Assembly (NCBI GenBank): GCA_028285755.1
Contig: JANQOQ010000014.1
Location: forward strand, 1-64,000
Reading direction: 5' to 3'
DNA length: 64,000 nt
DNA from: Puniceicoccaceae bacterium
GTDB lineage: Bacteria > Verrucomicrobiota > Verrucomicrobiia > Opitutales > JAFGAQ01
Below the pieces are notes generated by a model. The model had not been told where the DNA came from and did no database searches. It was given only the letters and a program-made list of their open reading frames with translations. Positions 7,120 to 10,025 of the stretch are shown here, piece by piece. The stretch's first letter is position 1; every line of letters begins with the position of its first letter. The position numbers and the translations under genes are program-made.

Positions 7120-8406
7120 ATGCGTATATTGAATCATCTTGCTATTACCTCCAATTCAAGGCGCAGTTTTATTAAGACTATGGCATCCGTTGCGGGTGCC
7201 ATGGCTCTTAATGCAAAAACGAAGGAAGCCCCCAAAGTTATTTTTCGATCAGCATGGCAGACTGTAAATATTGGGGATATTGCTCACACTCCTGGCTTCT
7301 TGAAATTGATGGAGACTTATTTACCAAATGTGCAAGTTACCCTATGGCCGAGTGATATTGGGGAGGGCGTAAAGGAAATCCTTGAAGCGCGGTTTCCAAA
7401 ACTTAAATTTGCAGAAACTGAAAATGAGATAAGATTAGCATTTAAAGAATGCGATTTCTTTATCCACGGTTCTGCTGCGAGTCTAAGTGGAATGCGACAA
7501 ATAGAAAGATGGGAAAAAGAAACAGGAAAGCCATTTGGAATCTATGGGATTACATTCGACGATCATCAATCGTGGAGAATCGAAAAGGATACACCTGAAG
7601 AGATAGAGCGAAGGGTAGATGTAATTAATAGATCTGCGTTTATTTATTTCAGAGATAGAGAGTCACTTCAAAAGGCTAAAGACTATGGTTGCAGAGCACC
7701 AATAATGGACTTTGCACCGGATGCGGCTTTCGCAACCGATTTAAGGGATGAGGGTAGGGCGAGTGCATACTTAGATGCCCATAAATTAGAAAAGGGGAAA
7801 TTTATATGTTGTATACCAAGATACCGATTTTCTCCATATTGGCTGATGAAAGAGCACATAGCCATAGACCTCAAAAAAGATAAAATAAATCAAGAAATGA
7901 AGGAGCAAGATCACGCTCCCTTAAGACTCGCTGTTAAGAAGATAGTAAAGGAAACGGATTTAAAGGTCTTATTGTGTCCTGAAGACGTTTCACAAATACA
8001 GCTTAATAAAGATCTGATTTACGATCACCTAACTCCCGCAGAAAAGGAGAGGGTTGTTTGGAAATCTGATTATTGGCTCACGGGCGAAGCAGTCAGCGTT
8101 TATAAGAGGAGTGCTGGTTTATTTGGCAATGAAATGCATTCTCCCATTATGTGCATAGGCAATGGAATACCGGCCATAGTCTGTCGTTGGGAGGGTCAAA
8201 CCTCCAAAGGAACCATGTGGAACGACATTGGGCTTTCTGAATGGTTATTTAACTTTGATATTGAAAGTGATAGAAATAAGTTACCCGATGCTGTGCTTGA
8301 TTTTGCTACAAATATAGAGACATCTTTCAAGAAGGCTCGAATGGCTAAGGAAAGAGTTAATCATTATCAACGAAGAACAATGAAGCAAGTTGGCGATTTA
8401 CTGTAG
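7120..8406 (+). CDS. Tat-exported polysaccharide pyruvyl transferase-family protein
   Basis: Resembles the polysaccharide pyruvyl transferase (CsaB/WcaK-like) family, which adds ketal pyruvate from phosphoenolpyruvate to sugars. The N-terminal fold half shows NIGDIAHTPGFLKL, a conserved FFIHGSA segment and GKPFGIYGITFD. The C-terminal half carries the nucleotide/sugar-binding-like region (IMCIGNGIPAIVCRWEGQTSKG). Unusually it begins with a twin-arginine signal (SRRSFIK followed by a hydrophobic stretch), implying export, where PEP would not be expected. It starts 9 bases after the TonB receptor and so belongs to that operon. A role in binding or cleaving a pyruvylated glycan in the periplasm is conceivable, but this is speculation. 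Confidence 0.72.
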   Translation: MRILNHLAITSNSRRSFIKTMASVAGAMALNAKTKEAPKVIFRSAWQTVNIGDIAHTPGFLKLMETYLPNVQVTLWPSDIGEGVKEILEARFPKLKFAETENEIRLAFKECDFFIHGSAASLSGMRQIERWEKETGKPFGIYGITFDDHQSWRIEKDTPEEIERRVDVINRSAFIYFRDRESLQKAKDYGCRAPIMDFAPDAAFATDLRDEGRASAYLDAHKLEKGKFICCIPRYRFSPYWLMKEHIAIDLKKDKINQEMKEQDHAPLRLAVKKIVKETDLKVLLCPEDVSQIQLNKDLIYDHLTPAEKERVVWKSDYWLTGEAVSVYKRSAGLFGNEMHSPIMCIGNGIPAIVCRWEGQTSKGTMWNDIGLSEWLFNFDIESDRNKLPDAVLDFATNIETSFKKARMAKERVNHYQRRTMKQVGDLL

Positions 8407-8447
8407 ATTTTGCTTTCAGCGCATATAGCGAATCACTGAGCTTTCGA

Positions 8448-8912
8448 TTAGGCTTGGTATCCAATGGAGTCCATTGAATGGGGATTGGTAACCCGAAGGA
8501 AGGTTTTAATCATAATCTGTATTTCTTTGCTGGTGCAGCTAATTTGTGCCAAAGCCGATTGTGGTTTATCCACAATTTTGTGAAGATAGGGATACTTAGC
8601 ACTCATTTCATGCTTACAATTTTTGTAAGCAATCTGATATTCGGGGAAATCCCTTTTATTTTTTGGTCTAAACCAAACGGTTTTGAAGCCACAGTGTCTG
8701 GTATCACGTTCTATTTTTCTTGTGAGCTGCTGAACAGCCAATTTTGGACCTTCTAAAACGCCAATGAAATTGCCATCGGAATATAAGAGCAAACCCGTTA
8801 TTTTTCGATCGTGGTTTCGCTTTCTAGTGGTCAGCAGTAATTCCTCCAAATCAGACTCTTTGAAATCATAGGTAGCCGAACTAAGGTAAATTACCTGATA
8901 TAGATCTTTCAT
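8448..8912 (-). CDS. BLUF-domain protein with altered flavin photochemistry residues
   Basis: BLUF domains bind FAD and sense blue light. Residues 1-96 align well: YQVIYLSSAT at the start, RKRNHDRKITGLLLY, then GNFIGVLEGP. Tyr9 and Asn33 match the light-active Tyr and flavin-binding Asn of PixD-type BLUFs, but the essential Gln of the FxQxLEG motif is Gly51 (codon GGC). The semi-conserved Trp and Met of the last strand are Tyr92 and Ile94. The protein may therefore bind flavin without the normal photocycle. A helical C-terminal extension to residue 154 has no recognised output domain. It is divergent from the kinase-like gene at 9075, and a perfect hairpin precedes its start codon. Confidence 0.85.
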   Translation of the reverse strand: MKDLYQVIYLSSATYDFKESDLEELLLTTRKRNHDRKITGLLLYSDGNFIGVLEGPKLAVQQLTRKIERDTRHCGFKTVWFRPKNKRDFPEYQIAYKNCKHEMSAKYPYLHKIVDKPQSALAQISCTSKEIQIMIKTFLRVTNPHSMDSIGYQA

Positions 8913-8915
8913 ATG

Positions 8916-8933
8916 ATTAGCGGAAGCTAATCT
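8916..8933 (-). promoter_or_regulatory. Perfect 7-4-7 hairpin immediately upstream of the BLUF start codon
   Basis: GATTAGC at 8916-8922 and GCTAATC at 8927-8933 are perfect inverse complements around a 4-nt loop. On the minus-strand message the stem ends about three bases before the ATG at 8912, where the ribosome would bind. It could be an operator for a dimeric repressor or an mRNA hairpin limiting translation. Confidence 0.45.
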
Positions 8934-9074
8934 TATAGATTAACAATCCTTATTTGTAAAGAAAATGTGAAGATAGTTTCTAATTTGAGATACATGGTCA
9001 TATTTTACCAAATTGAGTAAAGTGACTAATGAAATGACCGATTGCTCAGGTATTCCTACTTAGAACTTCAAGCG

Positions 9075-10025
9075 ATGGAGATAGTCCAAGATTTAGTCCT
9101 CAGTGATGAAGAGAAGAATATGCTCGATATGCATTCTGTCCTCAATGTATTGAGTGTTATTCAGTATGAAATTTTTAAGGTCGAGGAGCTGTTTGGTGAA
9201 GATCCGATGCTGGCCAATATTAGCAATTTATTGAGTAATTCTCAGCTACAGTTTAGTAATCCCAATTCACAGTGCAAAGTGTGTGTTGAATTGCTTCAAT
9301 TATCCGCTCTGCTGGAATCTTATGTATTTGCCTATGAGGGGAATCATTGCCTCGCAAAAAATACCGATTTCATAAAATACAAGGAGAATATTTTAAATAT
9401 AATTAAGGTGTTGGGTATTCGTATCTCGGAACTTCAGGAGAGACGGATTAGCTTCAGGGAATGGAATGAGATAAGTGTTGACGATTTTAGAAGGCAGATT
9501 ATCGACATAATGGGTGCGATAGAAAGGAATGCAAAGGGTAAATACGATATCGTCTACTCGCAAGAGCACCGAAAGAATAATTCGTATTTAATAAATTTGA
9601 GCATAGAGAGTGTTTTCGATGAGTGTTTGGTAATACCTTCGGTTTTCCAGGATTTGTTCAGGGATATTGTTTGTAATGCCCGAAAGTATACGCCTCCTGG
9701 TGGTGAAATTAGTGCGCGATTCTATCAGGATAATCACGAACTGGGAATAGATGTATTAGACAATGGGTGCGGTATACCTGATGATGAGATTGATCAAGTT
9801 GTCTTATATGGTAAGCGAGCGTCCAACGTGGAGGGTAGGGTAACCCGGGGTGGTGGCTTTGGATTAACCAAGGCCTTATATGTAACCAAACGATTTGGAG
9901 GTCGTTTTTGGATAGATTCGAAAACAGGAGAAAATTCCTATACTGAAGTAAAAATACGAGTGCCGAACTCACATACAGCTTTTAAATTGATTGAAGCGAA
10001 TAATTCAGAAGAAGCAGTAGCATAG
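9075..10025 (+). CDS. Soluble histidine-kinase-like ATPase
   Basis: Two-component-type sensor kinase core without membrane segments, so cytoplasmic. A helical segment near the start contains MLDMHSVLNVLSVI, which could be the phosphoacceptor His helix, followed by a long helical region. The C-terminal HATPase_c domain is clear: N box DIVCNARKYT, G1 box DNGCGIP, G2 box RGGGFGLTKA. No PAS, GAF or receiver domain is visible, and no response regulator lies next to it. I chose ATG 9075 over TTG 9042; neither has a good ribosome site. Divergence from the BLUF gene suggests a shared regulatory region. A partner-switching anti-sigma kinase is a less likely alternative. Confidence 0.75.
   Translation: MEIVQDLVLSDEEKNMLDMHSVLNVLSVIQYEIFKVEELFGEDPMLANISNLLSNSQLQFSNPNSQCKVCVELLQLSALLESYVFAYEGNHCLAKNTDFIKYKENILNIIKVLGIRISELQERRISFREWNEISVDDFRRQIIDIMGAIERNAKGKYDIVYSQEHRKNNSYLINLSIESVFDECLVIPSVFQDLFRDIVCNARKYTPPGGEISARFYQDNHELGIDVLDNGCGIPDDEIDQVVLYGKRASNVEGRVTRGGGFGLTKALYVTKRFGGRFWIDSKTGENSYTEVKIRVPNSHTAFKLIEANNSEEAVA

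Follow-up and report, generated by a model that had tools for sequence, protein, structure and literature searches.

The window, a 64,000-nucleotide stretch of one contig of a Puniceicoccaceae bacterium, encodes a short BLUF-domain protein, P0001, on its minus strand; an earlier sequence-only reading of this DNA had given no strand. The gene, its key codons, its divergent neighbour and the neighbour of a second BLUF gene of the same genome (P0002) are as follows.

8448..8912, minus strand: P0001, PixD-like BLUF-domain protein of 154 aa (open reading frame from ATG, Pfam match and model)
8886..8888, minus strand: Tyr9, the conserved flavin-side Tyr, kept (alignment)
8814..8816, minus strand: Asn33, the conserved Asn, kept (alignment)
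8760..8762, minus strand: codon 51, GGC (Gly), at the photocycle Gln position (sequence and alignment)
8694..8705, minus strand: Asp70-x-Arg72-His73, the conserved D-x-R-H motif, kept (alignment)
8637..8639, minus strand: Tyr92 at the Trp position, already Tyr or Phe in the Gln-bearing sister clade (alignment)
8631..8633, minus strand: Ile94 at the Met position, Leu in P0002 (alignment)
9042..10025, plus strand: HATPase_c (histidine-kinase-type) protein with no sensor domain detected, divergent neighbour of P0001 (open reading frame and profile search)
L115:6026-8089: divergent neighbour of P0002, a chemoreceptor with a CZB zinc-binding domain, a HAMP domain and an MCP signalling domain

P0001 matched the Pfam BLUF profile PF04940 over residues 4-93 with 85.7 bits (curated cut-off 25, E 2.4e-24), and a scan of the protein against NCBIfam gave no match above cut-off. 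The closest solved relatives by sequence were BlrB, Tll0078, Slr1694 and AppA. An AlphaFold2 model built with ten sequences (mean pLDDT 84.1, pTM 0.80, lower pLDDT in the C-terminal part) had the alpha/beta fold of BLUF domains. BLUF structures ranked best among the PDB matches to this model (Foldseek 2hfo, E 1.5e-9), and VIA-align matched it to BlrP1 3gfz with a Z of 16.5 and 2.1 Å over 125 residues. The VIA-align list also included spliceosomal Prp3-type chains (Z 9-11), which we took as a shared common fold. In the model the BLUF core is followed by two short C-terminal helices (117-123 and 129-141) and no effector is fused to it. This is the architecture of the PixD-type short BLUFs Slr1694, Tll0078, BlrB and BlsA, where a stand-alone core of ~95 residues is joined to C-terminal helices (fold match Z about 12-14). 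Scanning positions 8380-9120 for promoters and terminators resulted in one promoter-like site, against 2.4 expected, and no terminators.

What defines the BLUF photocycle is a pair of residues, Tyr and Gln; BLUF photoreceptors bind FAD and shift reversibly to the red by about 10-15 nm in blue light. P0001 has the flavin-site Tyr and Asn of BLUF photoreceptors (Tyr9 and Asn33), and the Gln of the photocycle pair is replaced by Gly, as it is in P0002. The sequence-only reading had aligned P0001 to PixD with an offset of exactly one residue, and the gapless phmmer match to Tll0078/PixD 1x0p (query residues 4-94 on chain residues 3-93) agrees with this. Its residue assignments, namely Tyr9 and Asn33 kept, Gly51 for the obligatory Gln and Tyr92/Ile94 for the Trp/Met pair, were all reproduced by our alignment. 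Like the PixD-type proteins, P0001 keeps the Tyr, Asn and E-G positions and the D-x-R-H motif of BLUFs named in PMC9020721; unlike them, P0001 and P0002 carry Gly where the photocycle Gln would be, Tyr at the Trp position and Ile or Leu at the Met position. We took as conserved those domain positions, 14 in number, at which at least 90% of the 99 Gln-bearing tree rows agree; the Gln column is 100% by construction, the rows having been chosen for Gln. Twelve of the 14 are kept in both P0001 and P0002 (Tyr9, Ser11, Asn33, Gly40, Leu42, Glu54, Gly55, Asp70, Arg72, His73, Arg87 and Phe89) and only Gln51 and Trp92 are lost; just 47 of 98 domain residues are common to the two proteins. The kept positions bear on flavin binding indirectly; both proteins would be expected to bind FAD.

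When the whole genome (4.25 Mb in 15 contigs, 97% complete) was searched with the BLUF HMM, two matches emerged, P0001 and G000:C2:477573-477845, the latter being P0002. The second gene lies on another contig and is intact; its product has 162 aa, is 44% identical to P0001, scores 91.5 bits against Pfam BLUF and carries Gly at the photocycle Gln position, Tyr at Trp and Leu at Met. The Gly51 codon is GGC in P0001 and GGT in P0002, against CAA or CAG for Gln in the relatives; the replacement therefore takes at least two base changes, and Gly has been maintained through a change of codon. It is thus very improbable that P0001 is a decaying gene or that Gly51 reflects a sequencing or assembly error. 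One Gly-type relative, that of Maribacter sp. PFL5 (L075/L140), is indeed broken by two stops, but the open reading frame of P0001 is intact, the change spans two bases, 12 of the 14 conserved positions are kept, and the intact gene on the other contig has Gly with a different codon. On these grounds a sequencing error or pseudogene was rejected.

The phylogenetic tree comprised 127 rows and was built with column 51 excluded and with one in four of the Gln rows from Maribacter, leaving out rows of fewer than 75 letters, the duplicate L002 and L031-L033. P0001 and P0002 formed a sister pair (support 99/96), nested in a six-row set (support 96/82) with four Gln-bearing proteins from family f10, in the same order. 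These nearest relatives (L014, L015, L017 and L021) share with P0001 the D-G-N that precedes the Gln strand and the R-D-F-P that precedes the aromatic residue at the Trp position, and differ from it in keeping Gln (CAG/CAA) and Met. A survey of close homologues for the same Gly, as had been proposed, thus returned Gly in the paralogue and Gln in the four nearest relatives. Of the four other genomes searched from the window's own family, two have a different, Gln-bearing BLUF and two have none. Most likely, judging from these sequences, P0001 and P0002 arose by duplication from a short BLUF photoreceptor of the ordinary kind, and the Gln was lost once, before or at the duplication. At the Trp92 position L014, L017 and L021 have Tyr and L015 has Phe, each with the Gln in place, so the aromatic change preceded the Gln loss or is independent of it. 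Contrary to the sequence-only reading, the Tyr is therefore not new to P0001, and the suggestion of a different photochemistry that uses it is weakened, Tyr92 not having arisen to replace the Gln; Tyr92 as compensation for the Gln loss was ruled out on the same evidence. Within the Gln-bearing sister clade, two BLUF genes of genus g62 (L018 and L019) each contain an in-frame TGA, near 1609-1611 and 1651-1653, that falls exactly on an invariant Gly codon (Gly40, Gly55). Recoding of TGA there is unlikely, neighbouring open reading frames of 393-418 aa being open under table 11.

Family searches found matches in 30 of 372 genomes of the window's own order, 30 of 384 of its class and 19 of 288 of its phylum, these samples overlapping. 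Of the resulting 78 domain rows, 72 were scoreable at the Gln column (69 Gln, two Gly, which are P0001 and P0002, and one Glu, L043), after leaving out four rows without a letter at the column, L033 (not a BLUF, under the cut-off) and L032 (a misaligned fragment). A Bacteroidota sample with matches in 22 of 198 genomes had Gln in 31 of 31 scoreable rows; left out of this count are two letterless rows, L274 (under the cut-off) and the four matches of the centre genome, one of them with Gly, because that genome was chosen for its Gly. An alphaproteobacterial sample with matches in 34 of 190 genomes had Gln in 40 of 41 scoreable rows and Glu in one (L309), two letterless rows, the Gly match of the centre genome and two matches under the cut-off being left out. 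The samples combined, Gln is kept in 140 of 144 scoreable BLUFs.

Further Gly-type proteins were sought with a DNA pattern (T-G, then ten residues on to [FI]-hydrophobic-Gly-x-hydrophobic-E-G) that demands Gly and hence finds only this kind. It hit 38 loci in 84,980 species genomes, and an HMM recognised a BLUF in 10 of them, from Hymenobacter glacieicola, Mucilaginibacter achroorhodeus, three Maribacter, Pricia, Candidatus Albibeggiatoa, a Phycisphaerales MAG and two Chthonobacter. In viral contigs the same pattern gave 22 loci and no BLUF by HMM. Peptide-pattern scans with the alignment of the pair P0001/P0002 hit 141 stretches in genome contigs and 101 in viral contigs, none of them a relative, and the 61 plasmid records that tblastn matched to P0001 were all below 60% identity. 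The Chthonobacter family has two further Gly copies (L189 and L201) and a nine-row clade with Glu, in which Asn33 is Ser in 9/9 rows and Tyr9 is Phe wherever a letter is present (8/9). The wider conserved clade of this family, L190-L200 and L204, has Phe and Ser in place of Tyr and Asn, nine of its rows also having Glu. One of its members, L194, lies between open reading frames that by eye resemble purS/purQ and purL; a literature search for BLUF with purL returned nothing relevant. In a sample of 36 Maribacter genomes, five (L248-L252) carry a His-type clade that keeps Tyr and Asn, with His at the Gln position, Phe at the Trp position and Thr at the Met position. Phe for Tyr and Glu for Gln also occur together in BLUFs of two unrelated genomes (L309:952-1911 and L043:1327-1827).

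Mapped on the tree, whose deep forks are unsure given few columns and many rows, the Gln label required 10 changes and the Gly label 8, of which well-supported branches force at least 8 and at least 6, respectively; parsimony is blind to gain versus loss, and Gln is the near-universal state. That Gly arose independently in Bacteroidota, Chthonobacter, a gammaproteobacterium and a planctomycete holds as a reading of these sequences. Tyr9 is kept in 13/13 Gly rows and 5/5 His rows of the tree, whereas every Glu row with a letter there (L043, L309 and eight of the Chthonobacter-family clade) has Phe. L190 and L191, relatives of the Glu clade, have Phe at Tyr9 with Gln still present, so that in this clade the Tyr probably went first. 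Retention of Tyr9 in the Gly kinds and its loss in the Glu kinds is a pattern in a small sample, in which too few independent pairs differ for a test against the Gln state. The Met was lost together with the Gln in 4-5 of 8 independent pairs, with 0 or 1 in reverse (median p 0.125, not significant).

According to the sequence-only reading, mutation of the Gln abolishes photoactivity in studied BLUFs. This is right in outline, as AppA Q63L is reported to be photoinactive (PMC4780082) and the red shift of AppA to be lost on replacement of Y21 or Q63 (PMC7005313). The light-insensitive flavin or redox sensor of that reading is a possible role. A second outcome, a lit-like lock, had gone unlisted: Slr1694 Q50A and AppA Q63E are cited in PMC6695109 as locked in a pseudo-lit state, and BlsA Q51A was lit-like in the dark in vivo (PMC6695109). 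The same paper describes the Met at the Ile94 position as an interaction partner of the Gln in Slr1694. Taken with the sequences, the analogy to these mutants suggests that P0001 and P0002 are probably BLUF folds that bind flavin, lack the hydrogen-bond switch of the Gln and signal in a state that is fixed or set by redox conditions. The Gln of their common ancestor would have been lost once, before or at the duplication that gave P0001 and P0002, and both would still bind FAD. Because the Gln-Tyr-flavin hydrogen-bond switch could not form without the Gln amide, no red-shifted signalling state would arise and a partner would meet one fixed surface, probably lit-like by analogy with the Q50A and Q51A mutants. 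Alternatively, that surface may be set by the redox state or occupancy of the flavin and not by blue light. Matches to PixD, AppA and BlrP1 in Pfam, PDB-sequence and fold comparisons support the flavin-binding, fixed-state interpretation, as does the recurrence of Gln-less BLUFs elsewhere, some of them as conserved sets over several species. Three points count against it. The divergent kinase does not recur beside BLUFs elsewhere, and the two copies lie next to different genes. Tyr9, present in 13/13 Gly rows, is retained more than a plainly light-dead flavoprotein would need, given that the Glu-type lineages lost it. Further, the idea rests on BlsA Q51A, Slr1694 Q50A and AppA Q63E/Q63L (PMC6695109, PMC4780082), in which the position of Gly51 is altered as in P0001; unlike P0001, these are engineered single changes in other proteins that evolved with Gln, and none of those described in the cited passages is Gly.

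The retention of Tyr9 in all Gly and His rows would fit with a photoreceptor that works without Gln, which we regard as possible though doubtful. Blue light would here move an electron (and a proton) from Tyr9, perhaps together with Tyr92, onto FAD, and a semiquinone, or water filling the gap at Gly51, would relay the signal, as proposed for Gln-less LOV proteins. The LOV glutamine is called "generally dispensable" in PMC9098866, which counts about 350 natural Gln-less LOV proteins. Signalling through a semiquinone occurs without the LOV cysteine (PMC4682037), and a remark in the same paper has a Tyr-less BLUF cyclase regulated through a semiquinone. A photolyase/cryptochrome-type protein is also encoded in the genome, so light probably matters to the organism. 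However, the BLUF Gln replacements with a stated outcome in the cited passages are all photoinactive or locked (PMC4780082, PMC6695109, PMC7005313), and one interaction partner of the Gln in Slr1694, the Met at position 94 (PMC6695109), is lost in P0001 and P0002 as well. The broader proposal that Gly BLUFs with Tyr9 are recurrent natural Gln-free receptors, responding to light or flavin redox without the glutamine amide, is a tentative one. They would be the BLUF counterpart of the Gln-less LOV proteins (LOV-deltaQ, PMC9098866), likewise natural members of a flavin photoreceptor family without an "essential" glutamine. LOV-deltaQ proteins differ in fold and photochemistry, and the same paper shows a light response for one natural member, whereas one of P0001 would be hypothetical.

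Flavin binding cannot be read from sequence, and a BLUF fold retained without flavin as a protein-protein interaction module would also account for the lost Gln. Overproduced BlsA Q51A was insoluble, which its authors linked to flavin binding, but Tll0078 Q50A was soluble (both PMC6695109), and Tyr9, Asn33, Gly40, Asp70, Arg72, His73 and Arg87 are kept in both copies; we consider such a module improbable.

PixD-type short BLUFs act through a PixE-like response-regulator partner. The genes beside P0001 and P0002 differ from each other, and in the 205 loci compared no full-length relative of either neighbour lies beside another BLUF. The exceptions are a 103-residue ATPase-domain match for the kinase in L058, the only one outside the own-locus copies, and an MCP-domain match in L204. 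The divergent kinase was accordingly rejected as a conserved BLUF partner; as a partner of P0001 itself the HATPase_c protein is possible, the link being adjacency alone.

A published census of bacterial BLUFs used a pattern requiring Gln (PMC4844311), and proteins like P0001 were therefore excluded by construction. Full-text literature searches, with most subscription journals outside their reach, turned up no description of BLUF proteins that naturally lack the Gln. Within that scope the Gly variant of this known family is undescribed, as are its duplication in this genome and its repeated appearance in other lineages. Annotated from a profile match only, proteins of this kind are labelled blue-light sensors, a name that may be wrong in a few per cent of cases (4/144 scoreable rows without Gln). 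Natural, conserved Gln-less BLUFs provide a ready-made test of whether BLUF signalling really depends on the Gln, and allow one to ask if a locked BLUF is of use to the cell and by what route flavin photoreceptors turn into light-independent regulators. Candidatus Albibeggiatoa has two BLUF genes in tandem, one with Gly (L076:91-618) followed by one with Gln (748-1263), and so offers a natural comparison of the two kinds by spectroscopy.
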